A stretch of 64,000 nt of DNA from Acidobacteriaceae bacterium KBS 89 (GTDB taxonomy: Bacteria > Acidobacteriota > Terriglobia > Terriglobales > Acidobacteriaceae), in assembly GCA_000381605.1 (NCBI GenBank), contig KB906755.1:124001-188000 (forward strand). Reading direction: 5' to 3'. A program made the translations under genes and the position numbers. The notes under the pieces are model-generated. The model did no database searches. It saw only the letters and a program-made list of their open reading frames with translations, and was not told where the DNA came from. This document shows positions 39,264 to 59,159 of the stretch, piece after piece (position 1 is the stretch's first letter; each line of letters starts with the position of its first letter).

Positions 39264-40286
39264 CTAATCTTGACGATAGTTCAGTGAACAGACGCAGTGC
39301 TGACAGGTTGCATTCGTTTCGATGTCGAGCGTCCGTCTGAACTTTTCAGCAGAGTCTCCGTTGATGACTTCTTCGAGGGTGGAAGAGGTTACATTTCCTA
39401 TTGCACGATGAAAGAAGCACGGGCGCACGGAACCGTCGACTTCGACGACGGCAGAGACCCAAGGTGCGTTGCAGCTTGGAGATTGAGGTGCAAACTCGCC
39501 GAGGTGCTCACGAAAGCGGCGTGCAATCCTACGGAGTTTGGCGGGTGGTTCGACTATGTATTTGTGGTTGATGCCGGCTTTGTATTCCAGAATGAGCAGC
39601 TCTATTTCTTCCTCGAGTGCTCTCGTCTCTTCCGCCGTCAGAGCTATTTCAGACTGCTTTTCCGTCGGCCAGATGAGAAGGCGATTGAATGCCTGAGAGG
39701 TCAGGTCAGCTGCGAGGAAGGAGATGGAGTCGAGGCCTAGTGCTCTTGCGGCATCTACTGTTTCGCGGAGGTGGCGATGGTTGGCCTTCTGGACTGTTGT
39801 GCGACAGGTGATCGGGAGCGAAGGACTTCGGTGGCGGACTGCGGCGACTCCTCTATGGATGAGGTTGTAGGCGCCGTTGACGCGGCGAATAGCATCATGA
39901 ATCTCCGGTGGACCATCGAGCGAGATGATGATGTCGTCGAAGAGAGTAGCAACCTCGTCGGCGCGTTTGTGGAGGAGAAGACCTGTGGTGAGAAGTGTGA
40001 GATGAATGTTCTGCTCGCGAAAGAAGTTGCACAGGGCTGCGAGATCGCTGTGTAGCAATGGCTCGCCACCGGTGAGGACTACCTGGCGAACGCCAAGGTT
40101 CAGGAGAGACTCGCGATGGCGTTCTAAGTCCTGTGCATGGAGCTGATCGTTGGTTTCCCGTTTCCAGATATCGCACATGACACAACGGCAGTTGCAGCGA
40201 CTGTGAACATTGAGAATGAGAATCGGCAGAGTTGTAAGGCGCGCAGGAGACGATGGCGTTGTGTGAGATTCATGCAGCGCTGGCAT
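39264..40286 (-). CDS. Radical SAM/SPASM protein
   Basis: This 340-residue radical SAM enzyme with a SPASM-like C-terminus is the last gene of the operon. The [4Fe-4S] motif CNCRCVMC (ligands C31, C35, C38) follows an initial ILNVHSR strand. GGEPLL and the radical-SAM barrel are clear. The C-terminal part has Cys residues in CNAPW, VRPCFFHR and CQHCVCS that fit auxiliary cluster ligands. Such proteins catalyse peptide modification or serve in glycan or lipid tailoring. It overlaps the upstream fusion gene by 17 nt. No precursor peptide is adjacent. The start is ATG 40286. It is convergent with the kinase gene, 13 nt away. Confidence 0.85.
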   Translation of the reverse strand: MPALHESHTTPSSPARLTTLPILILNVHSRCNCRCVMCDIWKRETNDQLHAQDLERHRESLLNLGVRQVVLTGGEPLLHSDLAALCNFFREQNIHLTLLTTGLLLHKRADEVATLFDDIIISLDGPPEIHDAIRRVNGAYNLIHRGVAAVRHRSPSLPITCRTTVQKANHRHLRETVDAARALGLDSISFLAADLTSQAFNRLLIWPTEKQSEIALTAEETRALEEEIELLILEYKAGINHKYIVEPPAKLRRIARRFREHLGEFAPQSPSCNAPWVSAVVEVDGSVRPCFFHRAIGNVTSSTLEEVINGDSAEKFRRTLDIETNATCQHCVCSLNYRQD

Positions 40287-42219
40287 TGTCTACCTTCTTC
40301 CCGGCAAGGCGAACGTCCCTCCCCACTGCCTTTCTTGCCTCGGTGAGCAGGTTGTCGATGGGCGCGCGCAGCCACCGCAGGTGGCCGTCGACTGTAAGGG
40401 GTTGTAGTCCAACGTTGAGTGGGTCGGGCAGACGATGGTAGAGCGTGGCGCTGGCAAGCTGGACCCGGCCGGAGAGGATGACCAGTTCGATCTGGTCGTA
40501 GGTGAGCTGCGCGACAGTTTCGCCCGGTGATAGTCCCTTGTCCCGTACCGCGACGAGGTCTGCTATTGAGCCCGGCCGGAGGTGTCCCTCTCCGTTGCGC
40601 AGGCGCAGGACGCTCGCTGATCGTGCGGTGACCATCTCGTAGATGGAGTTAGCGTCGAGGCCGATCTCGTTTCGGGCGTAGTTGATCTCATCGAGCAGAT
40701 CGCCGGCAGAGGTGAGTGGCGAGTCGCTGCCCAGGACGACGGTGTTGATCGATTTGATCAGTGTGGAGGAGGGAGTGCAATGGAAGAGGAACTGATTGGA
40801 GGTGGGACAGACGACCAGGGCAGAGCGACGGCGATTGAGGAGAGCAACGGATTTTGGGTTCAGCGCAAGACCATGGACAAGCACTGTGCGATCGCCGAGG
40901 ACCTGCATACGGTCCAGATCAAAGATCTCCTGCGCACTCTTTGCGTCGACCCCTTCGGCCGCGTGGAGGATAAAGGGAAGGTTGGGCGGCGTGTGGTCAA
41001 AGTTGTGGATCAGGTTTGGATCCATCTCGAGTGAGTGAGCCCAGCCAAATCTGGATAGAACGCGGATGGGGAAGTCAGCAGAGATGAGATCGCGGGTAAG
41101 TGGGTTGTGATGGCAGACGGTGGTGACACCGGAGAGGAGATTGCGGATCGCTCCCCACCATAGCCGTGTGGCTTTCGGCACCTTGCGATGACGTGCGATG
41201 AGGGAGGCGTGAGTGCGATGGATCTCTTTTGCCCATTCAACGGAGTTTTGATATGGGCCGGCGCCGAGATTTGGGAAGAGGCCGAACTCCAGATGATCAT
41301 GGGCGTTGACGAGGCCGGGCAGGACAAGATAGCCCGATAGATCAATGAGGTCTGCCGAAGGGGCGCTTCTTTCGAGCCTGGGCGGGCCGCTTGCTATGGA
41401 TTGGAGATGCCCTCGTTCGATGACGAAGGACGCAGCGGTAGCGGCCTCTGGCCCGAGAGCGTAGCTTGCTCCGCTGATATGGAGCGTCTCGGTTTTCTCG
41501 GGGAGACCGTGCGTGTGGAGGGAGGGGGCCGATTTCTTTCGCAGCTGCAGGATGTAGATGGCGGGGAGATCTCTTGAGTCTTTGTAGGACTCGAGTTTTC
41601 CGGTTCGCTCAAAGGTCGTCTTCTCTGGAGAATCGAAGCAAGGCTCGATGCGAGTGAGAAGTTCGAATCCGCAGGCTTGAAAGGCGTCGGTGATTTGTTG
41701 AAGAGAGTGGCTTGTCGTGGTGACCTGTTCTTCCGTTCCGTTCGCTTTGAATGACCGCTTCCAGTTGCAGGAGATCGCGGTATCCGGATGCATGTCGGTG
41801 AGGAATACCATCGCGCCAGGGCGGGTGATTCGGTAGAGTTCGCGGGCGAAGGTGTCCACGTTTTCGATGTAGCTGAGGACGAAGGAAGACAGTACGAGGT
41901 CTGCTGCGGAGTTTTGAACGGGCAATGCGACACAGTTTCCGAGGCGTAGAGTTGCTGCCGTCCCGAGCTTGGCGGACGCGCGTTGCAGCATCTCGGAGGA
42001 GGTGTCGACGCCCAACAAGCTGGCGGGGTGGCGAGAAGCGAGGAACTGAAGCCATCTGCCCGTGCCGCAGCCTGCGTCGAGTATGTCGAGGCCACTGACG
42101 TCTGGAAGCATTCTGGTGAGAAAGCGCTGCTCCAGCGAGAGAAGCGGGTTTGGCTGCTCGTCGTATACCTGCGCCCAAGTGTCGAAGACATCGGATGGAG
42201 TGGCCATCATCGTCGTCAT
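40270..42219 (-). CDS. Methyltransferase-amidohydrolase fusion protein
   Basis: This 649-residue two-domain protein has an N-terminal class I SAM methyltransferase (about 10-225): motif I LDILDAGCGTGRW, then LGVDTSSEMLQRA, ADLVLSSFVLSYIENV and the MVFLTDMH strand. The second domain (about 235-640) is an amidohydrolase of the guanine-deaminase/TrzN type: PGLVNAHDHLEFG (metal H-x-H), FILHAAEGV, VHGLAL, VVCPTSNQFLF and GSDSPLTSAG (metal Asp). The fusion is unusual and fits one pathway acting on an N-containing ring or methylated purine-like or amine substrate. The start at ATG 42219 overlaps the upstream stop (ATGA), so the frame further upstream is not used. Confidence 0.84.
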   Translation of the reverse strand: MTTMMATPSDVFDTWAQVYDEQPNPLLSLEQRFLTRMLPDVSGLDILDAGCGTGRWLQFLASRHPASLLGVDTSSEMLQRASAKLGTAATLRLGNCVALPVQNSAADLVLSSFVLSYIENVDTFARELYRITRPGAMVFLTDMHPDTAISCNWKRSFKANGTEEQVTTTSHSLQQITDAFQACGFELLTRIEPCFDSPEKTTFERTGKLESYKDSRDLPAIYILQLRKKSAPSLHTHGLPEKTETLHISGASYALGPEAATAASFVIERGHLQSIASGPPRLERSAPSADLIDLSGYLVLPGLVNAHDHLEFGLFPNLGAGPYQNSVEWAKEIHRTHASLIARHRKVPKATRLWWGAIRNLLSGVTTVCHHNPLTRDLISADFPIRVLSRFGWAHSLEMDPNLIHNFDHTPPNLPFILHAAEGVDAKSAQEIFDLDRMQVLGDRTVLVHGLALNPKSVALLNRRRSALVVCPTSNQFLFHCTPSSTLIKSINTVVLGSDSPLTSAGDLLDEINYARNEIGLDANSIYEMVTARSASVLRLRNGEGHLRPGSIADLVAVRDKGLSPGETVAQLTYDQIELVILSGRVQLASATLYHRLPDPLNVGLQPLTVDGHLRWLRAPIDNLLTEARKAVGRDVRLAGKKVDNASAA

Positions 42220-43679
42220 AAACTCTCTCGTTTTGGTTTGCGCAGATTGATGAATTGATTGGCCCATTGCAGCTCGATCGGAAAGCGATAGATGCCAAGC
42301 GCGTACCGCCAGGAGCTAAGGGTTTTTAAGAGAGCACGGCTCCACTTCGGAGCGCGGATGTCCTGCACCGTGGGCCAACGCGAACCTATGACGATCTCGA
42401 AGTTATCGATGAGGTTTTTTGTTTTGCGTTGCAGCCACGGAGCCTTGGTGTCGATGCGCAGGATGAAGTCCATCCACTGCTTGGTGGCGAACTCGGCTGG
42501 GGTAGAGGGGAATTTGATCTCGGCGTCGACGTTGCCGTACATGTTACCGGGCTGGGGGACTGGAGTGTAGTGGTAGATGATGATCTCGGAATCAGGGTTG
42601 ATCTTTTTCAGTTTGCGGATGAAGGCGAGGGTTTCGCGGGTATCTCGTTCCGGATCACCTGGGTTGCCGATCACAAAGGAGAATTCGGGGATGATGCCGA
42701 ATTTCTTTGTTCGCTCTGCAATGGTCACGGTCTGATCGGTGGTGATGCCTTTCTTCATTTCTTTGAGTGCCCAGTCGGAGCCCGACTCCGCTCCGAAGAA
42801 GATCATGGTGCAGCCCGCGCGTTTGAGAGCGGCGAAGGTCTCGTCTGAGTAGCGTGACATGATGTCGACCCGAGCTTCACACCACCAGCGGAGTTTGAGA
42901 TGTTCGATACGTTTAGCGAGTTCGAGTGCGTGGTCTTCCCGGAGGAAGAAGTTCATGTCGTAGAACTGGACGGAGTCTGCGCCGTAGTTCGTTACTAGGT
43001 GCGAAAGTATCGCGGCGGTGCGCTCTGGCGATTCCATGCGCTCCTTGTTGCCGTAGGCGGCGTGGACGCCGCAGAAGCTGCAGTTGAAGGGACAGCCAAT
43101 GCTGGCGTGGTGAACGGCAGTTCGCTTACCGAAGAAGGATGGACGGAGATATTTTTCGACGGGCAAACGGTGGAAAGGATGCCAGGGGAACGCATCGGGA
43201 CCCTTCATTGGCCGTTCCGCATTGTTGCGGGGTAGGCCGAAGATGTCCTTGTAGGAGAGCCCGAGGATGGACTCGAAGAGCCGTTTTCCGCGGATCGCTT
43301 CGAGAAGCTCGAGCATAGTTTCTTCTCCCTGGCCGCGAACGATGTAGTCGACGTATTTTGCGTTGAGCGCGGAGTCGGGGTAGACCGAAGGAAAATATCC
43401 GCCCCATACGATCTTTACGTGTGGATGGAGACGTCGGATCTCGCGTGATGCTTCCATTGCAGCGACCATTTGCGGGCCGGGCATGACGGTGACGCCGAGA
43501 AGTTCAACATTATGTGTGGCGATGAGGCTGAGAATAGTGTCGACTGGAGTCTCGTCCAAGTTGCCATCGACGATTTCATAGTCTTCGCGTCCTTCGAGCA
43601 CGGCGGCGATGGCCAGGATCGCCAACGGGAGGCGGCGGTTGCGTGGTCTGGTGGCTCGCGGATTGAAGAGGATAATCAT
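42216..43679 (-). CDS. B12-binding radical SAM protein
   Basis: This 487-residue protein has an N-terminal cobalamin-binding-like Rossmann domain (about 1-125: ILFNPRATR, VTVMPGPQMV, IVWGGYFPS, YIVRGQGEE) without the DxHxxG motif. The radical SAM domain contains CPFNCSFC (C196, C200, C203). The C-terminal extension (about 420-487) with YRFPIELQW resembles that of the two most upstream enzymes in the operon. The probable reaction is radical methylation or another cobalamin-dependent alteration of an unactivated carbon; the substrate is unknown. The start is ATG 43679, overlapping the neighbour's end by four bases. Confidence 0.86.
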   Translation of the reverse strand: MIILFNPRATRPRNRRLPLAILAIAAVLEGREDYEIVDGNLDETPVDTILSLIATHNVELLGVTVMPGPQMVAAMEASREIRRLHPHVKIVWGGYFPSVYPDSALNAKYVDYIVRGQGEETMLELLEAIRGKRLFESILGLSYKDIFGLPRNNAERPMKGPDAFPWHPFHRLPVEKYLRPSFFGKRTAVHHASIGCPFNCSFCGVHAAYGNKERMESPERTAAILSHLVTNYGADSVQFYDMNFFLREDHALELAKRIEHLKLRWWCEARVDIMSRYSDETFAALKRAGCTMIFFGAESGSDWALKEMKKGITTDQTVTIAERTKKFGIIPEFSFVIGNPGDPERDTRETLAFIRKLKKINPDSEIIIYHYTPVPQPGNMYGNVDAEIKFPSTPAEFATKQWMDFILRIDTKAPWLQRKTKNLIDNFEIVIGSRWPTVQDIRAPKWSRALLKTLSSWRYALGIYRFPIELQWANQFINLRKPKRESL

Positions 43680-44677
43680 TTTCTTGCCCTGGCAGAATAG
43701 ATTCGAAGTTGCGCTGGATACTGGTCGCCTTGCAGTCTGGTAATGACCTGTCGCATGAGGCGCTGAACTCCATGGCTGGGTGTGTCGATCTGCCAGTGGA
43801 TGCCGAAAGACGCTTCCATGCGTTGCAAACGTTTATCGGTAAGGTATCCGAGGCTGTTGAGCGTGTCGGTGGGAAGAACGGAGTGTGTGGCGTAGGCCTC
43901 GCGGCGCTCTGCAAGGATTTGTTGCGCGACGCTCTCGTCGCTGTACCAGGGGGTATCGGCGATGAGGACGGTTCCGTTAGCGCGAGTGCAACGCAACGCT
44001 TCGGCTAGAGTCCGCTCGTAGTTTTCGGAGTAGTGGAACGAGGCGTTGTAGATGACCAGGTCGAACTCATCGTCGACGAAGGGAAGGGTATCGAAGTCCG
44101 TCTGAAAGCGGGGAAAGAGAGTGGTGAGATGCTTCCTGTAATGTGCGGCGGCACCCAGTCCATTGCGATTATTGGTCAGTAGATCCACGGCGATGGGCGA
44201 GTGGCCCTCGAGTGCAAGCCGGTAGCTTAGCCAACCTGTGCCGGCGCCGAGATCCAGGATCTTGAGTCGGCCGTCGGCGCTTGGGATGGCGCGGGGAAGG
44301 ATATGCCGCTTGATATACCGAAAAGTGCGAGCGCGGAGAGACCATTGTTGGCTATTGTGGTCTGAAAGATCGCGATAAGGAAGGGCGAGGTAGTATTCCG
44401 CGCCAGTGCTCGAGAAGCCTTGAGCTGTTTGATCGCACAGGTCCTCCTTGATGAATCGAGAAAAATGCGCAAAGCGTTCCGGCAAAAGTGAATTCCAAAT
44501 ACCGTCCTCGTTGACAATCTTGAAAGAGCAGTCCGTGCAGACAAGCGTTGTGCCTGCTCCAGCGTTCCTATCTAGGAGATTGCCAACCCAGCCGCCGCAA
44601 CGCGGGCATTGCAGGCGCAGCTCGTCATGCCCAAACTGCGCTCTGGAGGCTGCTTCGATATGACTGGACATGATCAT
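43676..44677 (-). CDS. SAM-dependent methyltransferase with N-terminal zinc ribbon
   Basis: This 333-residue methyltransferase has a Trm112-like or zinc-ribbon N-terminus (C24, C27, C47, C50: CPRC and CTDC). It then has motif I LDLGAGTGWLS, post-motif FVDDEFDLVIYNASFHYSENY and LADTPW-type features of class I methyltransferases acting on lipids or quinones. Both ends overlap the neighbouring genes by four bases, so it is translationally coupled with the adjacent radical SAM gene. Its role is probably a methyl transfer within the same pathway; the substrate is unknown. Confidence 0.83.
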   Translation of the reverse strand: MIMSSHIEAASRAQFGHDELRLQCPRCGGWVGNLLDRNAGAGTTLVCTDCSFKIVNEDGIWNSLLPERFAHFSRFIKEDLCDQTAQGFSSTGAEYYLALPYRDLSDHNSQQWSLRARTFRYIKRHILPRAIPSADGRLKILDLGAGTGWLSYRLALEGHSPIAVDLLTNNRNGLGAAAHYRKHLTTLFPRFQTDFDTLPFVDDEFDLVIYNASFHYSENYERTLAEALRCTRANGTVLIADTPWYSDESVAQQILAERREAYATHSVLPTDTLNSLGYLTDKRLQRMEASFGIHWQIDTPSHGVQRLMRQVITRLQGDQYPAQLRIYSARARK

Positions 44678-45492
44678 GCCTGCACACGTTCGAAGTGGAG
44701 TAGCATGTGATCGCCGATGACACGGAAGCCTGGGAGGGGCGAGATGACCTTGTCGACTGCACGCAGGAAGCCCAGCAACTGTGGGTAGTTGTGAATCCAG
44801 GATTCAACATAGGACGGTGGAACGGTGACGCCGATGCCTATGCAGGAGCGAAGAGCAAATGAAGGTGAGAAGAGTTGCTGGAGCTTTCGAAGGGTCGGGT
44901 AGTACACGTCGATCGTAAACTCTCCGACCTTCGCTGTGGCCCGGCCAGAGCATCTGCGGAAGGCTTTGCGAAATTTTCTATGAAGGAGAAACCAGATGAT
45001 CTCCCATGCGCAGAAGCGTGTGGAGAGACAAACCACCAGGGGAGCGTTGGGTGGCAGAAGGGCGGCAAGATCTTCTGCCGTCTGCTTGAGGTCCGCGACA
45101 CAGTTGAGGCCGGAGAAATTTGAGAATGCGCCATCAAACATGGGCGCCGCCTGGAGTTCGCGTAAACGCTCGGTGGGGAGCAGGGTGAACTTTACTGAGG
45201 CGGCCGGGTTTTCTGTCCGCAGGCGGTTGGTGGCAACTTGTATCATCCGCTCCGATGCGTCGCAGGCAGTAACCGCGACGTCGCGTTGTGCAAGGAAAAG
45301 CGCATCCTCGCCGGTGCCACAGTTGAGTTCGAGTATGTGGTCGCCGCTCCAAAATGTCTGGGTCAGCAGGTTCCACACGGCGTCACGTTGAGCTCGGCCG
45401 ATCATGGATCTTGTAAAGACTTCGTCGTACTCAGCGGCCATGTGATCAAAGGCGAGGGCCGCTTGCGGCTGCGTTATGGCAAGTGGGGTCAC
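44674..45492 (-). CDS. Class I SAM-dependent methyltransferase
   Basis: This 272-residue methyltransferase has motif I ILELNCGTGEDAL, then VTACDASERMIQ and FDGAFSNFSGLNCV. Its C-terminal half has a hydrophobic stretch (FCAWEIIWFLLH) and a loop region seen in lipid or small-molecule methyltransferases. It starts with GTG at 45492, overlapping the stop of the upstream radical SAM gene (GTGA). It is the fifth gene of the operon. Confidence 0.83.
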   Translation of the reverse strand: MTPLAITQPQAALAFDHMAAEYDEVFTRSMIGRAQRDAVWNLLTQTFWSGDHILELNCGTGEDALFLAQRDVAVTACDASERMIQVATNRLRTENPAASVKFTLLPTERLRELQAAPMFDGAFSNFSGLNCVADLKQTAEDLAALLPPNAPLVVCLSTRFCAWEIIWFLLHRKFRKAFRRCSGRATAKVGEFTIDVYYPTLRKLQQLFSPSFALRSCIGIGVTVPPSYVESWIHNYPQLLGFLRAVDKVISPLPGFRVIGDHMLLHFERVQA

Positions 45493-46886
45493 GCTTCAAC
45501 CTCCATTAAGGTGGAGTGCAGACCGGCGCGTGAGAGTTGAATCTGATCGCGTAGAGTGGCAGCGAGTTCGGAGTTGGCTGCGGGCGTTCCTGCAAGACGC
45601 GCAAGCTGTACTTCATCCTTGAGCAGCTTGTCCGCGTGGCTGTAGAACGTTCGGGAGTGACGGCCTTTGATCTTGATCTCGCGGTCGGAGCTGACGCTCC
45701 ACGGCTTGAGCTGTACGAGGCGTTCGGAGACTCGTTGGTAGTAAGGCGTGCCCTTTATCGGATAAGAGACAGTGGTGAAGAAGATGTCGGGCTTTGTGAT
45801 GCTGACGTGCTTGATGGTGGCTTCGATGTCGGCCAGTTCCTCGCCTTCGTAGCCCCACATGAGGAACATACCGCTCTCGATGCCACGCTCGCGAGTGAGA
45901 GCGACGGCCTGCTGGACTTGTTCAACTTTGACGCCGCGATCCATGGCGTCGAGGATGCGCTGGGAGCCGCTCTCCGAGCCGATCCACACTCGGAAGCAGC
46001 CGAGTTCGGCGAGGAGGTCGAGCATCTCTGCGTTGAGTCGATCCGCGCGTGAGATGCACTCGAAGGGAATACGCAGACCACGTCGGCGCATCTCGGCGGC
46101 GTAATCGCGGATCCACTTGTGATTGATGGTGAAGACGTCGTCGGATACCCAGACCATGTCGGGAGAGTAGGTCTGGAGTAGCCACTCCACCTCATCGACG
46201 ACGAGCAGCGGATCGCGGCGGCGGTGGGTTTGCCCAAAGACTTGATGGCTGCACCAACGGCATTTGTAGGGGCAGCCGCGGGCGGTGATGAAGTTGACTG
46301 AGCCTTTGCCGTGAGCGTCGCGCCAGGTCTTGACGTAGCGGCTGACGTCGATCGCATGACGAGCGGGCCATGGTTGGTTGTCGAGATCGGCGATCTGTTC
46401 GCGGTGCGGAGTCTCGCGCATGTTGCCCGTGTCGTCGAGATAAGCCAGACCTGGGATGCTGGAGCAGGAGTCGATTGAGTCTGCGCGGAAGGCCTCGAGG
46501 AGGTCTTGCATCGTCAGCTCGCCTTCACCGAAAACCACGAAGTCGGCACCAGCTTGGAGGTATTCGAGAGCGTATGCGCCTGGTTCGGGACCGCCGACGA
46601 TGGTCTTCCAGCCGGCTTCGCGGGCCACCTTGAGGACTTCGACGACATTGCCGCGTGTCATCAGATTGGCATAGATGCCGATTACGGACGGCTCTTCCGT
46701 ACGAAGATGTTGAAAGAGCGCCTCACGGTTGGAGAATGTTGTGTCGAATACTTCAACGTCAAAGCCTTGATTACGCAGATGGGAGCACAGATAAAGAATG
46801 CCAAGCGGAGCATAGGGCTTCATGATCTGAAGCTCCTTGGGATCTTCGAAGAGGAAGTATCCGTGAGTGAGGAGAAGGTCCGCCAT
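45489..46886 (-). CDS. B12-binding radical SAM protein
   Basis: This 465-residue protein has an N-terminal B12-binding fold (LLLTHGYFLFEDPKELQ, GIYANLM, IVGGPEPGAYAL, VVFGEGE). The radical SAM core has CPYKCRWC (C205, C209, C212), GSESGSQRILD and a conserved GYEGE segment. The start of the protein (MADLLLTHGY) closely resembles that of the next upstream enzyme, suggesting tandem duplication. It lacks DxHxxG, as do the other members. Start ATG 46886 overlaps the upstream stop by one base (TGATG). Confidence 0.86.
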   Translation of the reverse strand: MADLLLTHGYFLFEDPKELQIMKPYAPLGILYLCSHLRNQGFDVEVFDTTFSNREALFQHLRTEEPSVIGIYANLMTRGNVVEVLKVAREAGWKTIVGGPEPGAYALEYLQAGADFVVFGEGELTMQDLLEAFRADSIDSCSSIPGLAYLDDTGNMRETPHREQIADLDNQPWPARHAIDVSRYVKTWRDAHGKGSVNFITARGCPYKCRWCSHQVFGQTHRRRDPLLVVDEVEWLLQTYSPDMVWVSDDVFTINHKWIRDYAAEMRRRGLRIPFECISRADRLNAEMLDLLAELGCFRVWIGSESGSQRILDAMDRGVKVEQVQQAVALTRERGIESGMFLMWGYEGEELADIEATIKHVSITKPDIFFTTVSYPIKGTPYYQRVSERLVQLKPWSVSSDREIKIKGRHSRTFYSHADKLLKDEVQLARLAGTPAANSELAATLRDQIQLSRAGLHSTLMEVEA

Positions 46887-48382
46887 CAGACTTGCCTCGC
46901 TGCGGCAACTAGTGCGTGCAGAGGGATCAATTTCTCCATGCCGGGGTCACTGGAAGAGTCTGTCGTGAGTGTCGTTGCCTCGGTGTTCCTGGTCTTTGGT
47001 TCAAGCTCGAAGACCTGCTGCCAGAGAGAACCTGCATCTACTGCTTCGGACGAATCGATGTTTCTCCATGAGTTGACCTCGGCATGGAGGGCGTTCCTCA
47101 ATGCCATGTAGAACTCATCTTTGTAGGCTGCGCGAAACATGACGCATAGGTCGTCGCTGTGGGTCCAATTTCGTTTGGCTCCGATCTGTTCCTGAACGCG
47201 TTCATAAAAGACGGTGCCGGGAAGAGGATATGAAAAGGAGATTCCGATATCGTCAGGGCGAGTACTTCGGACCAGCGCTATGGTCTGCTCGATGTCTTCC
47301 CAGGTCTCTCCCGGATAACCGAATTGGAGAAAGTAGCATGCGCGTATTCCTACGTCACCGAGACGGGCTCGTGCAGTGACAACATCGGAGACACGCAGGC
47401 CTTTGTCCATTGCGTTAAGAACCTTTTGCGAGCCAGATTCCACGCCCATCCAGATCTCAGTGCACCCCGCTCGCTTAAGACCGGCAACGGTGGTGTGGGT
47501 CATTAGATCGGCTCGGGACTGGATCTTAAACGGCAACGCACATTGCATCGCCTCGATTTCGTCGGCAAAGTCTTGGACCCAACGATGATTGAGCGCGAAG
47601 ACATCGTCTCCAAACCAGAGATGTTGCACACCGTACATTTCCTTTAATTCACGAATCTCCGCCGCAACCAGATTGGCTGGGCGAATCTGGAATTTGTTGC
47701 CCGAGATTGGCTTGGCGCACCAGTTGCATCGGTAAGGACATCCGCGACTGGCGACGACGTTGGCAGAGAAGTGGCCGTGTGCTGAGATCCAGGCTCGACG
47801 GTAGGGTTCGAGGTCGATGAGTTCTCGGGCGGGTTTGGGCAACGTGTTCCAGGATGGGTTCTTCGATATCCTGTTGGCGCTCTGCGCGACTCTGCCTGCG
47901 CTATCGAGGTAGACGAGACCTGGGAGGTCCAGGTTGGGGCTGCCGGAGAGGATAGTCGTACAGAGTTCGACGAGTGTCTGCTCGGCTTCACCGCGAAGGA
48001 TAAAGTCGACGCCGTTGCGGAGGTACGATTCGGCTTGGTCTGTTGCGTCGGAGCCGTGCGCGATGACGACAGTCCCGGTTTCGCGGGCCTCGTGGGCGAG
48101 TTGCCACGCGAGCTCGCGCATGCGCGTGAGGCACATCTTGGAGAGGAAGTTGAAGTCATCTTCATAGATGACAACAATGTTGGGCCGAGATTGCTTCAGC
48201 GCGTTCGCGAAGCCGGGGTCGGGGGGCTCGAGCATTGTGTCGAAGACTGCGACGGAGATGTTGCCAGCTCGGAGAGCTGAGGCAGCATAGAGCGTGCCGA
48301 GCGGGGCGTAGGGCTGCATCTTGCGGACCTGCTTCGGGTCGTAGGGGAGATGATACGAATGTGTCAGGAGGACATCAGCCAT
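46886..48382 (-). CDS. B12-binding radical SAM protein
   Basis: This 498-residue enzyme has a B12-binding-like domain (MADVLLTHSYHLPYDPKQ start, VVIYEDDFNFL, VVIAHGSDAT, FILRGEAEQ) and a radical SAM core with CPYRCNWC (C215, C219, C222) and WMGVESGSQKVLNA. It is the probable duplicate of the following gene, sharing the N-terminal signature. The start is ATG 48382 with a very strong GGAGGAGG ribosome site six bases before. The 25-nt spacing to the preceding gene is the largest gap in the operon. Substrate unknown. Confidence 0.86.
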   Translation of the reverse strand: MADVLLTHSYHLPYDPKQVRKMQPYAPLGTLYAASALRAGNISVAVFDTMLEPPDPGFANALKQSRPNIVVIYEDDFNFLSKMCLTRMRELAWQLAHEARETGTVVIAHGSDATDQAESYLRNGVDFILRGEAEQTLVELCTTILSGSPNLDLPGLVYLDSAGRVAQSANRISKNPSWNTLPKPARELIDLEPYRRAWISAHGHFSANVVASRGCPYRCNWCAKPISGNKFQIRPANLVAAEIRELKEMYGVQHLWFGDDVFALNHRWVQDFADEIEAMQCALPFKIQSRADLMTHTTVAGLKRAGCTEIWMGVESGSQKVLNAMDKGLRVSDVVTARARLGDVGIRACYFLQFGYPGETWEDIEQTIALVRSTRPDDIGISFSYPLPGTVFYERVQEQIGAKRNWTHSDDLCVMFRAAYKDEFYMALRNALHAEVNSWRNIDSSEAVDAGSLWQQVFELEPKTRNTEATTLTTDSSSDPGMEKLIPLHALVAAARQV

Positions 48383-48407
48383 CGATTACCTCCTCCCTTC
48401 AGTTCGT

Positions 48408-49910
48408 TTAGCAGGCATTGGCAGGCTCCTTGGGAAGCTCCTGGCCGGTTACCAACGAACGACGCAGGATGATGCGCTCGGAGACGTTGGAGAGCCACAA
48501 CTCCCAGGGGAAGGAATAACGGCTGGATCGCAGTCGCCAGCGGATGGGGGTCTGGACGATGAACCGGACGGCTCGCCGCAACTGTGAGTTGTTTTTGTGA
48601 CGACGATCGATCTGGTTGTTTAAGAGGAAGTAGTTGAGCATTCGCTGCAGACGAGCGAGTTCCTTTCCTTTGAGCCACGGCAGCATATTCGCGCCGAGTG
48701 GCATGTCCATCCATTCGCGGAGGCTCTTTGGTTCGGGAACTCCCATCTCGCGAAGCTGCGGCCAGATTGGAATGCCGGGGTATGGAGTGAAGATGTTCGG
48801 CGAGAAGCTGACGTTGGGAAACTGGTGGCCGATGTCACTCATAGTCTGAAAGGTGACGATGCGGTCGGCTTCGGTTTCTCCGGGATAGCCAAAGATGAGG
48901 TTGAAGGTGACGCGGATACCGCCTAGCTGTGCCTTGCGTGCGGTCTCGTACATTTCGTCGACGCGCTGATGACGCTTGTTCATCAGCTTGAGGACCGACT
49001 CGGATGTTGACTCTGTACCGAAGCCCATGTGCGATACACCGCTGGCACCAAGCAGTCGCACATCGTCTTCGCTCATGCGGCAGAGGAAGTCAGTCGAGGC
49101 CTGAAATGTCCATTTGAATTTCACCCCGGAGGAAAGGATGCCGCGGGCAATTTCGAGTGCGCGTGGCAGTTGGACAGGGAAATTGGAGTCGAGGAGCGCC
49201 ACTTCTTCTGTGCGGTAACGAGTGACCAGGTCGATCATCTCCGCGACAACGCGGTCGGCAGAGAGAGCATTGAAGCGCCTTTTGTAGAAGACCTGGTCGG
49301 TGCAGTAGTTGCAGGCGTACGGACAGCCGACGCTGGTGGCGTATGCGAGCTTACGCACGCCGCAGAGTTTTTCGTAGGCGTCGAAGTCGGTGAGATCGAA
49401 GGCTGGTACGGGTAGATTGTCGAGAGGCTCTACTTTGCGATCGATGTTGTGGGTGCGCTGGCCGTTGTTCTTCCACGAAAGCCCTGCGATGGTATTGAGA
49501 TTGAGCTTTTGCGCAAGGGCTTGAGCTACCTCAACTATGGTGATCTCACCCTGGCCACGGACGACCATGTCGACGAAGGCTTCGCTCAGCGTCTCGTCAG
49601 GCAAAAGCGAAGGGTGCCAGCCTCCGAAGATGACCGGCAGCCATGGGCTGTAAGTTTTCACAGCGGTGGCGACTTCGATGGCGCCGCGAATCATCGGGCC
49701 GGTAAGAACAGAGATACCAAGGAAAAGAGCATCGACACTTTCGCATTGAATTCGCGTGAGGTAGTCAAGCTCGATTGCTGCGTCGATCATTACAACGTCG
49801 AAGTTGGCTTCGCGCAGAGAGGCAGCGAGAGCAAGCAGGCACAGGGGAGCACCCAATGGAGGTCCGTCGTAGGGCGGGTAGAAGAGGACGATCTTGTTCC
49901 GTGTCAGCAT
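48408..49910 (-). CDS. B12-binding radical SAM protein
   Basis: This 500-residue protein has the cobalamin-binding-like domain (NKIVLFYPPYDGPPLG, GISVLTGPMIRGAIEV, VIFGGWHPSLLPDE, VVRGQGE) and the radical SAM core CPYACNYC (C196, C200, C203). The C-terminal part has YSFPWELWLSN, as in the upstream enzyme, and the protein ends in Asn-Ala-Cys. The start was placed at ATG 49910, which overlaps the upstream gene's last codons by seven bases. The open frame extends further upstream but lies inside the upstream gene in another frame. Confidence 0.85.
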   Translation of the reverse strand: MLTRNKIVLFYPPYDGPPLGAPLCLLALAASLREANFDVVMIDAAIELDYLTRIQCESVDALFLGISVLTGPMIRGAIEVATAVKTYSPWLPVIFGGWHPSLLPDETLSEAFVDMVVRGQGEITIVEVAQALAQKLNLNTIAGLSWKNNGQRTHNIDRKVEPLDNLPVPAFDLTDFDAYEKLCGVRKLAYATSVGCPYACNYCTDQVFYKRRFNALSADRVVAEMIDLVTRYRTEEVALLDSNFPVQLPRALEIARGILSSGVKFKWTFQASTDFLCRMSEDDVRLLGASGVSHMGFGTESTSESVLKLMNKRHQRVDEMYETARKAQLGGIRVTFNLIFGYPGETEADRIVTFQTMSDIGHQFPNVSFSPNIFTPYPGIPIWPQLREMGVPEPKSLREWMDMPLGANMLPWLKGKELARLQRMLNYFLLNNQIDRRHKNNSQLRRAVRFIVQTPIRWRLRSSRYSFPWELWLSNVSERIILRRSLVTGQELPKEPANAC

Positions 49911-51451
49911 GCGGCCTCCACCGGCTCTGGGTTCGGCTCCGGGTTTGGCTCCAAGCGTCGCGCATCGACAACGGGTTTGTAGCCGGCGGTCCGCTCCTTG
50001 AGCTTGTCGTTGACCCAAAGCTCGACCGGAAATCGGTAGAGACTGTGATCGAGGCGGAAGCGTGCAGGAAACGAGATGCACTTCTGAGCGAGGCGGGTGA
50101 AGCGAGTGCGCCGGTCGGCGCCGATCGGAATGCGATCGAACGCGATGCGCAGATAGTCGCGCATAATTTGCAGTTCTTCGTGGTCGTGTCCGTTTAGCCA
50201 AGGCAGCTTGGTGTATCGAGGAAAGAACTCCGCCCACTTTTCGAAGGAGGTCGGGGCTTCAATGCCGAGTTCCTCGGCCCTGTTCATGACGTTGGTCCCG
50301 GGATAGGGAGTGAAAATATTGGTCCAGAATTCGGTTCCCGGGAAGCGTCGACAAACGTCCATGATGAAGTTCATGGTTTCTCGCCGTTCTTTTGGACCCT
50401 CGCCGGGATAGGCGAAGATGATGTTGAACGACGGGCGCATACCCGCAGACAGACAGCGTGCTGCACTCTCATAGATATCGTCGAAGTTCTGAAAAGTCTT
50501 GTTCATGGCCTTGAGAATCTTCGGCGAACCGGAGTCGACTCCCTGGCATATCTGGTGCAGACCGCCGCGTCGAAGGAGTTTCAAATCTTCAAGGGAGAGA
50601 CGGGAGGTGAGGTTGGTGGTTGCCTGAATGCTCCAGCTAAACTGGGCGCCGGCACGGACCAACCCTTCACCTATGGCGCGGGCGCGGTCGAGGTCGACAA
50701 GGAAGTTATCGTCCACCACCCAGAGCATCTCGAGGTTGTATCGGCGGCTGAGGTCGACGGTCTCCTCTACGAACTGCTCTGCAGGCAGAGCGTTCCACTT
50801 GCGCTTATAGACTGCTCCGTTGGTGCAATAGGCACAATCGAAGGGGCACGCCAGACTAGAGGTGTACATCGCCCAGCGTCGGCCGCACACGCGTTCATAG
50901 GCGTCGAAGTCAGCGAGGTGGTAGGCCTTTGGGGGCAAGTCTACGATTGGTTTGAGAGCGCGTTCCGGTGTGAAAATGAGCTTGTTGTCGCGTTTGAAGC
51001 CGATGCCTGCGACAAAATCCGGTGCAGAGTTGTTCTCGATGTGGCCGACGAGTTCGAGGAAGGACTCTTCGCCTTGCCCACACACGACATAGTCAATGTA
51101 TGGGGCCTGCAGTGTTTGGGTAGGAAGCAGCGATGGATGCCATCCGCCGAGAACGATAGGAAAGTCCGGGTTCCATGCCTTAATGGCCTTGGCGATTTCA
51201 ACGGTCTCGCGAATCATCGGGCCTGTGACGAGAGAGATGCCGAGGCATAGTGCATCGCGCACCTCTTCGAGTACACGCTTTTTGTAGTTTGGGGTGATGG
51301 TGGAATCGACCAGGACGACCTGGTAGCCGGCGCGAATCAGAGGTGTGGCAACGGCCAGTATTCCGAGCGGCGCCGTGGCGTCGGAGCTAGCGAACGACGG
51401 GAAGAAGAAGACAATTTTGCGGGACTTGGGCACTGCAAATTCCTCGCTCAT
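49904..51451 (-). CDS. B12-binding radical SAM protein, first gene of operon
   Basis: This 515-residue protein has the B12-binding-like N-terminus (KIVFFFPSFASSDATAPLG, VVLVDSTITPN, GISLVTGPMIRETVEI, VLGGWHPSLLP) and radical SAM motif CPFDCAYC (C202, C206, C209). It is clearly paralogous to the next enzyme (same GGWHPSLLP and FDAYE blocks). The end carries a short Glu-Pro-Asn-Pro repeat, encoded by a small tandem repeat, followed by a C-terminal Cys. The start is ATG 51451. It heads the nine-gene operon and is divergent from the HprK-like kinase gene. Confidence 0.87.
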   Translation of the reverse strand: MSEEFAVPKSRKIVFFFPSFASSDATAPLGILAVATPLIRAGYQVVLVDSTITPNYKKRVLEEVRDALCLGISLVTGPMIRETVEIAKAIKAWNPDFPIVLGGWHPSLLPTQTLQAPYIDYVVCGQGEESFLELVGHIENNSAPDFVAGIGFKRDNKLIFTPERALKPIVDLPPKAYHLADFDAYERVCGRRWAMYTSSLACPFDCAYCTNGAVYKRKWNALPAEQFVEETVDLSRRYNLEMLWVVDDNFLVDLDRARAIGEGLVRAGAQFSWSIQATTNLTSRLSLEDLKLLRRGGLHQICQGVDSGSPKILKAMNKTFQNFDDIYESAARCLSAGMRPSFNIIFAYPGEGPKERRETMNFIMDVCRRFPGTEFWTNIFTPYPGTNVMNRAEELGIEAPTSFEKWAEFFPRYTKLPWLNGHDHEELQIMRDYLRIAFDRIPIGADRRTRFTRLAQKCISFPARFRLDHSLYRFPVELWVNDKLKERTAGYKPVVDARRLEPNPEPNPEPVEAAC

Positions 51452-51574: not shown

Positions 51575-52555
51575 ATGTCGTTTTTCTCGATCGATCAAAC
51601 CGTCTTGTCGCACTCGATGAAGCTATGCTTTGCAGGCGCCGGTTGCGACTTGCAAACAAATTCAGTGGATCTAGCGAGAGCGTTGGAGCTTCTATCCATT
51701 GCGGCGGATCCCTTGCGCGCGGGGCGATTTGAGATGCGGGTTGTTGTGGATGAATCGTCAGTTGAGGCGGTTGGCGAACCTCATTTTCGAGGGTTGCACC
51801 ACGTAGTAACAGCCTCCTTTGGCAGCACAAATTTGTTCGTGTTCGATATTCTTCGCCGTACTCTTAGTGCCAGAGTTTCAGGCGTAGTTGCCCGAGACGA
51901 CCTTTTCTGGAAGGAGAAGTTGATACCGATTACGCTGGGCGTCCTCGGAGCCGCGATGGGATTGGTTCCAGTTCACTGCGCGTGCCTGGAGTGGGAAGGC
52001 GACGGGTTATTGGTTGCCGGAGTATCGGGGGCAGGGAAGTCAACACTGTCGGTCGCACTTTCGGAGAACGGCTTTAACTATGTTTCGGATGACTGGACGT
52101 ATATCTCCCAGCGTCAAGGAAGTATCGTCGCACACGGTACGTCGGCGCCGGTGAAACTACTGCCGGATGCGGTGCAACACTTCCAAAGCTTGGAGAGACA
52201 TAGTTTGCAGGTGTCAATGAATGGAGAGTTGGCCTACGAAGTAGACATTGCAGAGGCGTTTGGGGCCCAGGTGGAACGAGAGTGCCAACCGCGGTGGCTA
52301 GTCTTCCTTGAGAGGATACAAGAGGCTGGAGCCGACTTCACGCCGATGTCATCAGCAGAGGCGCGAAGCTATCTCAATTCCAGTGTCGAGAGGCTTCCGC
52401 CGCAGCTATCCGAAGCGGGCGCAATGCGAGAGCGGACGATTCAAAGCGTATCCACACTACCCTGCTGGCGCTTTCGGTATGGTGGCACTCCGCAGTTTGC
52501 GGCGAACGAACTCCGGGAGTTTGTTGTAACTCGCAGGCAGGAGGTCTACGCATGA
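51575..52555 (+). CDS. HprK-like P-loop kinase
   Basis: This 326-residue protein has the HPr-kinase-type P-loop GVSGAGKST (149-157) in a C-terminal domain, followed by SDDWTYI, which fits the downstream catalytic aspartate region of HprK. The N-terminal part (about 1-120) is specific to the HprK-related proteins found with radical SAM, lasso-type or exosortase gene sets. No HPr protein is visible here. It probably phosphorylates a peptide or carrier in this system. The start is ATG 51575; the next gene overlaps its stop by four bases (ATGA). Confidence 0.72.
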   Translation: MSFFSIDQTVLSHSMKLCFAGAGCDLQTNSVDLARALELLSIAADPLRAGRFEMRVVVDESSVEAVGEPHFRGLHHVVTASFGSTNLFVFDILRRTLSARVSGVVARDDLFWKEKLIPITLGVLGAAMGLVPVHCACLEWEGDGLLVAGVSGAGKSTLSVALSENGFNYVSDDWTYISQRQGSIVAHGTSAPVKLLPDAVQHFQSLERHSLQVSMNGELAYEVDIAEAFGAQVERECQPRWLVFLERIQEAGADFTPMSSAEARSYLNSSVERLPPQLSEAGAMRERTIQSVSTLPCWRFRYGGTPQFAANELREFVVTRRQEVYA

Positions 52556-52983
52556 CGAGTGAGCCGCGATGGCATCCGGACCTGCTTCGGCGATTTGTTG
52601 CTACACCCTACGTCTTCAGTTCAGGCGATGACATTAACCAGCTTCGGGTCGAGTCGAATGACCTGGAAATCGCATTGGGTGTACGTAATTCCGACATCAT
52701 CCACCGCAAAGAGAGCCGAACTGGCGGCTTGCTATGCAGGTTGATTCGAGATATGGTCGGCCCGGTGGGTGGCTCAGAGATATCAATGCTCTCTGATGGG
52801 CCGCTTCGGATCCTCCAGCAGGGAAGAGGGACGGTCCTAATCCACGACCGGGAGAGAGCGGAGCTACTCGGATTTGTCTCGCGAAGAGTTCCGGTGGAAG
52901 AACTTGTTTCCTCGTTGATCCCGAGACTTCTGGGTGCGCAACCCGAAGAAAAAATTGATTCAACTGCTTTTACAAAGAAGTGA
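52552..52983 (+). CDS. Small protein of unknown function in kinase/nucleotidyltransferase module
   Basis: This 143-residue protein shows no recognised domain. The middle (NDLEIALGVRNSDIIHRKE) and the C-terminal segment (VLIHDRERAELLGFVSRRVPVEEL) look structured, with no signal peptide or membrane segment. Its position just after an HprK-like kinase gene and before a nucleotidyltransferase-family gene, with ATGA overlap upstream and GTGA overlap downstream, suggests a small partner (a PqqD-like peptide chaperone is a possible analogue, unproven). Confidence 0.6.
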   Translation: MTSEPRWHPDLLRRFVATPYVFSSGDDINQLRVESNDLEIALGVRNSDIIHRKESRTGGLLCRLIRDMVGPVGGSEISMLSDGPLRILQQGRGTVLIHDRERAELLGFVSRRVPVEELVSSLIPRLLGAQPEEKIDSTAFTKK

Positions 52984-53149: not shown

Positions 53150-53518
53150 ATGAAATTAGGCCTAGTTACAAAGACCGTCCTCTTGAGTTGCCTGGCTATG
53201 GGCTCATTGACGCTCTCCGGATTTGCTCCTGCTCCGGACGCGCCACGGCGTATCGAGGTTTCGGTAAAGAAATTTGCTTACAGTCCTGCAGACGTAACCC
53301 TGAAAAAAGGCGAACCTGTCGTTCTGGTGCTGAGTACCGAAGATGTAGGACATGGGCTGAAATTCAAGGAATTAGGCCTTGATGCGAAGTTCAACAAGGG
53401 TAAACCCGGCGAGCTCGCGTTCACGCCGGACAAAGCAGGAGATTTTGTGGGGCACTGTTCGGTGTTCTGTGGCTCTGGGCATGGCTCGATGACTCTTACT
53501 CTTCATGTAACGGAATGA
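53150..53518 (+). CDS. Cupredoxin-domain protein with CuA-like motif
   Basis: This 122-residue exported protein has a signal peptide (about 5-24, LLSCLAMGSLTLSGF) and a cupredoxin fold. The C-terminal motif CSVFCGSGHGSM (C103, C107, H111, M114), with H68 upstream, is the CuA dinuclear copper pattern of cytochrome c oxidase subunit II. No oxidase helices are present, so this is a soluble periplasmic electron carrier. The cytochrome c gene overlaps it by four bases, pointing to electron transfer between them. Start ATG 53150. Confidence 0.82.
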   Translation: MKLGLVTKTVLLSCLAMGSLTLSGFAPAPDAPRRIEVSVKKFAYSPADVTLKKGEPVVLVLSTEDVGHGLKFKELGLDAKFNKGKPGELAFTPDKAGDFVGHCSVFCGSGHGSMTLTLHVTE

Positions 53519-53991
53519 CGATGCGGCAAGTTGCCTTGGTTTCGACGTGCGCTTTTCTCGCCGCAATGGCGGGATGTAAGGCAAGTCCACCTGGCAAGGC
53601 GGAGCACAGCGTTATGAGATGGACAAAGCATACCGTGACGGTTCGTAACAAGGCAGAACGAAACCCACTCCTGCCTACTGACGAAAACCTAGCTGCGGGC
53701 AAGGAAGCTTTCTCACATTACTGCGTGGCTTGTCACGGAATGGATGGGCAGAATACTGGTGTTCCATTCGCAGACAACATGTCCCCGCCAGTGCCGTTGC
53801 TAAATTCTCAAGAGGTCCAGTCGTACACAGACGGTCAATTGAAATGGGTAATCGATAACGGCATAGAGCCTTCGGGAATGCCGGGATCTAAAGGGATTCT
53901 CAGCGATGAGGAGATATGGTCGACGGTCCTATTTATCCGGCATCTTCCGCCCGCAGGAAGCCAGGGCGATCCGCCCATGTATAGCAAATAA
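53515..53991 (+). CDS. Lipoprotein c-type cytochrome
   Basis: This 158-residue monohaem cytochrome c has a lipobox ending at C21 (AAMAGC) and one haem motif CVACH (C70, C73, H74). Met114-type ligands could come from [10 protein letters not shown]. The protein is expected to be membrane-anchored on the periplasmic face and to accept electrons from the CuA-type cupredoxin encoded just before. The start ATG 53515 overlaps the previous stop (ATGA). Confidence 0.85.
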
Positions 53992-54037
53992 GGCGTTAGA
54001 AGCGGAATTAGGGTCTAAAGAGGGGAGGTTCTCACGC

Positions 54038-55285
54038 ATGGACGATCGACTAGCAGAAGCCGTGATTGCCACCCTTCGCGGAGGGGAGACGGATGCCAGC
54101 TTTGGTCTGCTTGCAGGGTTTGACTATCGAACATGGGTTGGAGTCTATGACTGGCTGGATGCCAGTGGTCTTGCGCTGTATTTCCTTGACCGTGTTCGTA
54201 CCTTGGGTCTTAACTCTGCCATCCCCGATCGAGTGTTACGTCGTCTTGAAGAAAATGCTAATGACAATCGAGAAAAGACGGCCTGCATGTTTGACGATTT
54301 TGTCAGAATCAACCTCGCATTTCAGGCGGCCGGCTTGTCGTACGTCAATCTCAAAGGATTTACTCTAACACCCGAGGTGTCTCCGGACGCCGCTCTACGT
54401 TGTCAGTTTGATCTTGATTTTCTCGTGGCGTCCAGCAACATCCCTGAGTGCGAGAAAATATTAGAGCGCGAAGGGTATTTACTAACGGGTTCTGGTAAGA
54501 ACGTCAAAGAGTTCAAGGCGGGTAGTCGGCACCTGCCGCTGGTGCAGGATTTATATAAAGCGAAGCCACAAAAGTGTGTAGAGATTCACTTTGCCGATCC
54601 CACCGAGAAACATGGCGATATTCTGTGGGGCGACCAACTCTCGCGACGTCGATTGCAGAGATGGAACGAAACAGATTTTCCGGTGCCTTCGACGTGCGAC
54701 AAGTTTCTCGGCATGGCGCTTCATCTGTTCAAGCATCTTCAAAGTGAATGGACCCGCGCCTCATGGATACTTGAATTCGCTAACTTCATCGACTTCCATC
54801 GTGATGATGGGGAACTGTGGTTGGAGGTAGAGAAGTATACAGCGCACAATCGGGACGACAAGGTTGCTGTGGGTGCTGCGACCCTCATTGCGCACAGGAG
54901 TTTCGGGATACGTAATCTCCCCGGGACTTTGGCAAGGACCGTCTTTGAGTTGCCTCAACCAGTTCACTTGTGGGTTGAACGCTATGGAGAAAATGTCCTG
55001 TACGCCGCATTTCCTGGTACGAAGCTTTACCTTCTACTCCAAACCTCTCTCTCGGTAGTTGGAGATGCGCAATCACATGTGAGTTTCGCAAAATTATTTC
55101 CCTTACGTCGACCGCCTAAGGTCACCGTTGCCTCGAGAGAAAACAGCCTACTGGTGCGATTGAAGCAACAAAGAGCAGAGCTCAGCTACTTGCTCTTCCG
55201 ATTGCGATTTCACATAACTCAGGGCTTCGCTTACATGATTGAAATATCACGTTGGAAGAAGAGCATCGCCTCATTGCAGAACTGA
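54038..55285 (+). CDS. Nucleotidyltransferase-family protein (NTP_transf_5-like)
   Basis: This 415-residue protein resembles the uncharacterised nucleotidyltransferase family seen in lasso-peptide, HprK-related and exopolysaccharide clusters. The key region is [20 protein letters not shown] followed by FDLDFLV (Asp-x-Asp, the metal-binding pair). The helical N-terminus covers residues 1-90; C-terminal domains are helical. The start ATG 54038 has a good GGGGAGG site; the longer open frame upstream lies in the cytochrome gene. Confidence 0.75.
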
Positions 55286-55454
55286 ACGTCACTGATTCAA
55301 TTGCTTTGACGGACTTATCGCGAAGTGCAGTACGCAGGAATGGATGAACAGGGAAGGTCACTAATACCTAAGTGACAGGGCGAAGCTGTAAGTGGGTTTT
55401 TAAAAGTGGTTTGTAGTGGTATGCCCAGACGCGAGTAGCAGCCCGGGAGTTTCA

Positions 55455-56012: not shown

Positions 56013-56043
56013 TCGTGAAGAGAGATAAGGGCAGGATAGACAA

Positions 56044-59013: not shown

Positions 59014-59159
59014 TTATCTATGCTGCCAATTGATCTCCAGTCGTCCTCGTCTCTTGAAGAACGACCTCGCTCTGCCGCGAATATGGATCATGTCTCTGTG
59101 GGCCATTCCGCAGAGAGAAAAATATGGGCTTGTGAACTAGCAATATTGAGGTATGGCTG

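Follow-up and report, generated by a model that had tools for sequence, protein, structure and literature searches.

A run of nine minus-strand genes rich in radical S-adenosylmethionine (SAM) enzymes lies at 39264-51451 of a 64,000-nucleotide (nt) stretch of the genome of Acidobacteriaceae bacterium KBS 89 (contig KB906755.1, positions 124,001 to 188,000; this whole stretch is called the window here). The gene set recurs across several families of Acidobacteriota, where it occurs in a long form, represented by the window operon, and in a short form that usually carries its own GTP (guanosine triphosphate) cyclohydrolase II, RibA. Together with two further genes, for an HPr-kinase-like protein and an NTP_transf_5 nucleotidyltransferase, the cluster may constitute a specialised-metabolite pathway in which a nitrogen heterocycle is deaminated, then phosphorylated and perhaps phosphoglycosylated. 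We favour this reading tentatively; it falls somewhat short of being probable.

The operon and its two conserved forms

The nine genes, named A to I by transcription order (Table 1), are arranged as the original prediction had described them. The coordinates of the open reading frames (ORFs) give an overlap of 7 nt between A and B (B starts at 49910), a single gap of 25 nt between B and C, an overlap of 1 nt between C and D, overlaps of 4 nt each at D/E, E/F, F/G and G/H (H starts at 42219), and one of 17 nt at H/I. The genes are apparently co-transcribed, in support of the single transcription unit proposed earlier. Pfam likewise confirmed the proposed composition of five B12-radical SAM proteins (A, B, C, D and G), one SPASM-type protein (I), two stand-alone methyltransferases (E and F) and one methyltransferase-amidohydrolase fusion (H). 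A, B, C, D and G each consist of a B12-binding domain followed by a radical SAM domain with CxxxCxxC. C is borderline for B12, its weak domain scoring 33.3 bits against a cut-off of 32.1 in one Pfam scan and 31.2, below the cut-off, in another; all 28 C proteins scanned match the B12-binding domain at E<=0.01. By eye, the N-terminus of F is zinc-ribbon-like (Zn_Ribbon_Prim 17.3 bits, below the Pfam cut-off of 23).

Conservation extends to the reading frames: once identical copies and proteins below 85% of the length of the window copy were removed, the CxxxCxxC motif was intact in 43/44 A, 29/29 B, 72/72 C, 51/51 D, 63/63 G and 59/59 I proteins. The 6.0-Mb genome (13 contigs) holds 24 radical SAM matches, six of them within the operon, and nine B12-binding matches, five of them within the operon, C being just below the cut-off in that scan. 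This crowding is far beyond chance. Rfam at gathering thresholds, run on the window and 11 other loci, returned transfer RNAs only and no cobalamin, flavin mononucleotide or SAM riboswitch; a search for promoters and terminators gave site numbers no higher than those of shuffled sequence.

With H as query, 30 of the 100 genomes around that of the window (its own included) gave a match at E<=1e-20, one match each: 28 from the same genus, which has 60 genomes in the set, and two from another family of the class. In a sample of the phylum, 23 of 396 genomes match the H amidohydrolase at E<=1e-60. A further scan of species genomes kept the best 80 of 379 relatives, beyond which remoter clusters may exist; 79 of these 80 are Acidobacteriota (Edaphobacter, Granulicella, Silvibacterium, Terriglobus, Solibacter, Bryobacterales and others), and one is a member of the Chloroflexi, whose locus (L139) has an H homologue without a surrounding cluster and pairs with L136 in the amidohydrolase tree. 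Plasmid records held only amidohydrolases of 24-28% identity, in six records.

Around the 29 matches of the near genomes other than the window's own, 6-20 kb were retrieved, and all loci were compared by ORF calling and blastp clustering. Family labels were assigned mostly by eye, with one example each of PhyH, GT87, UGT, kinase, NTP_transf_5, the methyltransferase domain M of H, RibA, RibB and the ABC gene confirmed by Pfam. Once duplicates, defined by identical last 200 residues of H, were removed, 94 distinct loci remained, the window included: 65 long (with G), 21 short (without G, with UGT or RibA) and eight others, several of which are contig ends. The original prediction had set conserved synteny in other Acidobacteriota as its test beforehand, and the 65 long and 21 short loci provide it.

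Counted with loci cut by contig ends included, the 65 long loci contain A in 44, B in 30, C in 51, D in 54, E in 52, F in 48 and I in 55 cases, as well as the HPr-like kinase in 20, NTP_transf_5 in 17 and RibA in three. C-D-E-F-G are contiguous in 40 of them, the remainder being partly contig-cut or short of a gene, and B sits after H in two loci (L048 and L100). The 21 short loci contain C, F and UGT throughout, E in 20, NTP_transf_5 and RibA in 19 each, PhyH in 17, the kinase in 16 and RibB in five; A, B, D, G and I are present in none. An example is L074 of Terracidiphilus gabretensis S55, with the order NTP_transf_5-E-RibA-C-F-H-UGT. Within the 30 genomes with an H match the long and short forms exclude each other, each genome having a single match; kinship was left uncorrected here, and we do not count this as proof.

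None of the nine proteins reached the cut-off of an NCBIfam model among the best 25 models for each, and we found no description of the gene set, its spread or its two forms in open-access papers, most subscription papers lying outside this search. The first result agrees with the earlier statement that no known pathway is recognised. The best NCBIfam scores were those of BchE for A (117.8 bits) and D (169.1 bits), against a cut-off of 481, and of HpnJ for G (121 bits against 577.6). The nearest sequences in the PDB are TokK for A, the dehydratase AprD4 for both C and G, 9ccb (MgmA) for D and cytosylglucuronate decarboxylase for I, while an AlphaFold2 model of C with a predicted local distance difference test score (pLDDT) of 86.3 resembles TsrM, MgmA, AprD4, CysS, OxsB and TokK in Foldseek. 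The operon proteins would thus share with the cobalamin-dependent radical SAM enzymes TsrM, TokK, CysS, OxsB and MgmA, and with AprD4, the two-domain fold (examined on C) and CxxxCxxC, and they differ from them in reaching no curated family cut-off among the 25 models compared. Such likeness points to a family of chemistry and would not specify a reaction.

The deaminase-type amidohydrolase and the additional RibA

The residues H65, H67, H177, E180, H207 and D257 (numbering of the 407-aa domain) are invariant in all 35 H amidohydrolase sequences compared. We take this set of HxH, H, E, H and D to be the mark of metal-dependent deaminases in the amidohydrolase superfamily, forming the catalytic metal and proton-transfer site, and H is thus predicted to retain a complete deaminase-type metal site. 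The AlphaFold2 model of the domain (mean pLDDT 93.9) has as nearest Foldseek neighbours 5'-methylthioadenosine (MTA)/adenosine deaminases, atrazine/triazine hydrolases and guanine/isocytosine deaminases. With hydrolases of MTA/S-adenosylhomocysteine (SAH), guanine, isocytosine and triazines H shares the fold and the HxH...HxxE...H...D residues; it differs from them by an identity of only 14-20% in the 50 alignments listed, by its own motif NAHDHL and by the fusion to domain M, found in 34 of the 65 long loci (in the other 31, M has a gene of its own). The solved neighbours act on purines, pyrimidines and triazines, and the substrate of H is not readable from them. Against H, the 5'-deoxyadenosine deaminase model PRK07228 scored 37.2 bits (cut-off 522) and an 8-oxoguanine deaminase model 57.4 bits (cut-off 532).

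The RibA protein of the short form, taken from locus L052, matches TIGR00505 with 216.7 bits, above the equivalog-domain cut-off of 205.85, and C62, C73 and C75, presumably the zinc cysteines, are invariant in the 13 sequences aligned. Eighteen of the 21 short loci have its gene placed between E and C; the contig of another, L085, starts at RibA. In a copy count over 25 genomes, cluster RibA is an additional genomic copy. All 14 genomes without RibA at a cluster (eight long-form, six cluster-free) have two GTP cyclohydrolase II genes, and all three long-form genomes with RibA alongside the cluster have three. Among eight short-form genomes, four have three copies, two have four and two have two; the last are G016, whose cluster has no RibA, and G019, which is 74% complete.

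A second RibB (3,4-dihydroxy-2-butanone 4-phosphate synthase) accompanies this pattern in six of seven short-form genomes (G019 was not included) and in none of seven others. Four of these short-form genomes encode it as a single-domain RibB some 6-8 kb away from H, in the neighbourhood of PhyH and of an ABC transporter gene or an unassigned gene, f15; G001 and G049 have a RibB-RibA fusion as their second copy, situated 19 kb away or on another contig. The window itself also contains a bifunctional RibB-RibA gene of the genome, at 10746-11912, roughly 27 kb away from the operon.

An amidohydrolase tree built by maximum likelihood (93 rows, rooted at the midpoint) places the short form within the long form as one group, although the label requires two changes, as L079, one of the other loci, sits inside it. 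The short form appears from this tree to have been derived once from the long form, the direction depending on the midpoint root. Genes A, B, D and G, the M domain and usually also I were apparently lost, and RibA, a glycosyltransferase and PhyH were apparently acquired. Among long loci, L076 is closest to the short clade, followed by L065, L067, L046, L069 and L073 (support 92/80). Of these, L046 has RibA and GT87 alongside, and L069 and L073 have GT87 in shorter flanks; L043 and L045, which share the H C-terminus of L069/L073, show RibA.

Kinase and nucleotidyltransferase genes beyond the operon

The original prediction had treated 39264-51451 as the whole system, and this limit proved too narrow. 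Two genes divergent from the operon, encoding the HPr-kinase-like protein (at 51575) and NTP_transf_5 (at 53906), most likely belong to it, because of three observations. In locus L124, from Acidobacteriaceae bacterium KBS 96, A to G, M, H and I are followed by the genes for the HPr-like kinase and NTP_transf_5, making twelve consecutive genes on the same strand whose longest ORFs overlap. NTP_transf_5 immediately precedes E in 19 of the 21 short loci. At the genome level, PF14907 is present in all 26 cluster genomes, within 25 kb of H in 21 of them, and anywhere in the genome in 12 of 22 cluster-free ones; this comparison covered 48 genomes of the genus, the other 12, each at most 90% complete, being left out.

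The HPr-kinase-like protein is a relative of HprK_rel_A and not a member, as it scores 48.5 bits against a cut-off of 200. Its gene adjoins I on the same strand in four long loci and adjoins A or B divergently in nine. The reading frame of NTP_transf_5 overlaps the preceding cytochrome gene, and the ATG at 54038 is its likelier start; the NTP_transf_5 profile gave no matches in the PDB. The intervening genes are found in fewer loci than the kinase and NTP_transf_5. They comprise orf143, a family of six loci, all close relatives, which matched no Pfam or NCBIfam family, and genes for a cupredoxin-like protein and a cytochrome c (53150-53991), a pair that recurs near several related loci.

Table 1. 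Genes of the operon and its divergent neighbours in the window.
Feature	Position	Strand	Description
A	49904..51451	-	B12-binding/radical SAM, 515 aa; first in operon; Pfam PF02310 67.5 bits, PF04055 68.4 bits
B	48408..49910	-	B12-binding/radical SAM (Pfam), 500 aa; closest paralogue A
C	46886..48382	-	Radical SAM with weak B12 domain (Pfam), 498 aa
D	45489..46886	-	B12-binding/radical SAM (Pfam), 465 aa
E	44674..45492	-	Class I SAM methyltransferase, 272 aa, GTG start; Pfam Methyltransf_25 44.2 bits
F	43676..44677	-	Methyltransferase, 333 aa; Pfam Methyltransf_11 51.1 bits at 141-239
G	42216..43679	-	B12-binding/radical SAM (Pfam), 487 aa; marks the long form
H	40270..42219	-	Fusion of methyltransferase domain M (about residues 1-240) and predicted deaminase-type amidohydrolase (about 243-649); Pfam Amidohydro_1
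I	39264..40286	-	Radical SAM/SPASM, 340 aa; last in operon; PF04055 60.6 bits, PF13186 47.8 bits
HPr-kinase-like gene	51575..52555	+	326 aa; divergent from operon; sub-threshold matches to HprK_rel_A (NCBIfam, 48.5 bits) and Hpr_kinase_C (Pfam, 28.6 bits)
orf143	52552..52983	+	Overlaps the HPr-kinase-like gene by 4 nt; 6-locus family, close relatives only
NTP_transf_5	53906..55285	+	Nucleotidyltransferase, Pfam PF14907 113.3 bits; frame open from 53906

Past NTP_transf_5, an exopolysaccharide-type locus occupies 55416-63916 on the plus strand, with NusG-like, SLBB export and Wzz/GNVR-type genes assigned by Pfam and flippase-like and glycosyltransferase genes by eye; its polysaccharide export genes lie at 56044-59013. 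On the other side, a large protein that looks kinase-type by eye (36020-39250) is convergent with the operon, and among the first-compared loci it was matched beside the cluster only in L031-L036. The GT87 glycosyltransferase mentioned above is fused to a WD40-like repeat in L052 (162-2270), and its family stands beside seven long and eight short loci. Farther off in the window, a 1975-aa ORF (18256-24183) lies in a stretch with an unusually strong GC skew of about 0.5.

Proposed pathway, alternatives and meaning

From gene content, conservation, the H motif and the extra RibA and RibB copies we infer what kind of substrate is used, in which order the steps run and what each enzyme does. The pathway would start from a nitrogen heterocycle of the purine, pyrimidine, pteridine or flavin type taken from GTP metabolism. 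The radical SAM enzymes A, B, C, D, G and I would methylate or rearrange it at carbon, E, F and M would methylate heteroatoms, and H would deaminate it hydrolytically. The HPr-kinase-like enzyme would then phosphorylate a hydroxyl group, to which NTP_transf_5 would perhaps attach a sugar through the phosphate. Of this set, the short form would use C, E, F and H together with the nucleotidyltransferase and, in most cases, the kinase, and would add RibA, a UDP (uridine diphosphate)-sugar-type glycosyltransferase and usually a PhyH oxygenase. A heterocycle from GTP metabolism is favoured because of the deaminase-type site in H, the recruited GTP cyclohydrolase II, the extra RibB and a precedent in toxoflavin-like compounds.

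In that precedent, GTP cyclohydrolase II, a deaminase and methyltransferases are the proposed builders of pseudoiodinine (PMC9911603), and the short form likewise joins a GTP cyclohydrolase II, a deaminase-type enzyme and methyltransferases in one operon. The two systems differ in that the deaminase described there is of the RibD type, whereas the candidate here is an amidohydrolase, and in that the psd gene list given there shows no radical SAM enzyme, kinase or nucleotidyltransferase (PMC9911603). They differ further in the distribution of a dedicated GTP cyclohydrolase II, which is present in 19 of 21 short and three of 65 long loci and absent beside the window operon. The roles given to the kinase and the nucleotidyltransferase are proposed because of the phosphoglycosylation pair of pseudomycoidin, in which a homologue of HPr kinase places a phosphate on a hydroxyl and a nucleotidyltransferase then links a hexose to that phosphate (PMC8498205). 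The cluster has such a pair in common with the phosphoglycosylated lasso peptides paeninodin and pseudomycoidin as far as these are described there, the nucleotidyltransferase being likened by role and not by family. It differs from them in that the window's genome has no PF13471 peptidase and that no precursor was found within 3 kb of the core genes.

Alternatively, the cluster could make another natural product or a lipid, with H as a housekeeping deaminase of SAH, MTA and 5'-deoxyadenosine, the by-products of SAM-using enzymes. The solved folds nearest H do include MTA/SAH/adenosine deaminases, H is fused to a methyltransferase in about half of the long loci, and the long operon encodes six radical SAM proteins and three methyltransferase domains. 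We nevertheless regard this as unlikely: H persists in the short form, where B12-type radical SAM genes number just one and core methyltransferases two, the score of the 5'-deoxyadenosine deaminase model is far below its cut-off and lower than that of the 8-oxoguanine deaminase model, and RibA is left unexplained. About equally doubtful is that a nucleotide sugar or a sugar residue of the neighbouring exopolysaccharide is modified with C-methyl, deoxy and phosphate groups. SLBB export genes lie in the window and, within the flanks seen, beside seven long and ten short loci, and the best sequence match of C and G is a sugar dehydratase; many long loci, however, show no export genes in view, and RibA, the deaminase motif and the MGT-type glycosyltransferase of the short form would have no explanation.

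A ribosomally synthesised and post-translationally modified peptide (RiPP), perhaps with its precursor encoded elsewhere in the genome, and a membrane lipid are less likely products. For the peptide, quite improbable in our view, speak radical SAM RiPP maturase models among the weak NCBIfam matches and the occurrence of HPr-kinase homologues with nucleotidyltransferases in lasso peptide clusters (PMC8498205). The lasso peptidase PF13471 (B2) gave no matches in the window's genome, and among 1633 short ORFs located up to 3 kb from the core genes none of the 15 largest groups resembles a precursor family, which agrees with the earlier observation that no precursor peptide fits within the operon. 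We know of no role of a deaminase or RibA in RiPP synthesis. The main conserved short-ORF family near the clusters is a CxxCH cytochrome-like small protein, seen at 14412-14708 of L047 and in eight other loci. Tailoring of hopanoids or other membrane lipids, a known function of which would have told against the original prediction, seems more improbable still. HpnJ is among the best scores for C and G, and a B12 family of ladderane-type lipids is among the matches, but the best HpnJ score is 124 bits against a curated cut-off of 577.6 and the best HpnR score 105.9 against 650, no lipid-synthesis gene was seen to recur in the cluster loci, and the distribution is patchy, with matches in 28 of the 60 genomes in the genus.

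Of the heavily methylated small molecule, lipid or peptide suggested originally, the small-molecule pathway therefore gains ground, because the recruited GTP cyclohydrolase II and the deaminase-type amidohydrolase point to a nitrogen-heterocycle or nucleotide-type substrate rather than a lipid or peptide, neither of which gained support. Heavy methylation does not stand as stated. It is a possibility, because the B12-radical SAM fold also covers non-methylating enzymes, and it is weakened since C, the sole B12-type radical SAM protein retained in the short form, is weak in its B12 domain and counts AprD4 among its nearest solved relatives.

Several observations weigh against a GTP-derived, phosphoglycosylated heterocycle. 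The short clusters L053/L080 and L099 have no RibA, and its rarity beside long loci and absence from the window operon mean that the inference for the window's form leans on the shared core of C, E, F and H. No RibA is in view in L076, the closest long neighbour of the short clade, and L079, inside that clade, retains an I-family gene together with C, F, H and GT87, so that the losses were not one clean step and the loss of I is incomplete. Lumazine synthase is single-copy in 14 of 14 genomes, and RibD_C copies in 14 genomes follow no cluster pattern, with none within 25 kb of H and the nearest seen at about 28 kb in G049; the riboflavin pathway has thus not been duplicated in full, and we rejected that reading. 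NTP_transf_5 lies elsewhere in five of the 26 cluster genomes (G011, G034, G036, G053 and G055), and the kinase and nucleotidyltransferase are present in fewer than a third of the long loci, though flanks are often cut. Export genes of the SLBB type adjoin 17 of the 86 long and short loci, which fits another role, and the sequence closest to C is that of a sugar dehydratase.

Each enzyme family in the cluster is already known, and radical SAM-rich natural-product clusters are a known kind; there is a moderate chance that the product represents a new compound class. A more specific version is considerably less probable than the general pathway: the product might form a new class of secondary metabolites or cofactor-like compounds made from GTP and related to pterins, lumazines or flavins, which a radical SAM relay would C-methylate or rearrange at several positions, an amidohydrolase would deaminate in place of RibD, and an HPr-type kinase and a nucleotidyltransferase would finish as a phosphoglycoside; it would be spread among soil Acidobacteriota. 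Acidobacteriota are common in soil, and to our knowledge few of their natural products have been described. The short form is a natural experiment that exposes the core genes E, C, F and H, so that few genes would suffice to test the pathway. Should the substrate stem from a nucleotide, the cluster would represent a new GTP-based route with several radical SAM reactions that are also new, and a kinase-nucleotidyltransferase pair outside lasso peptides.

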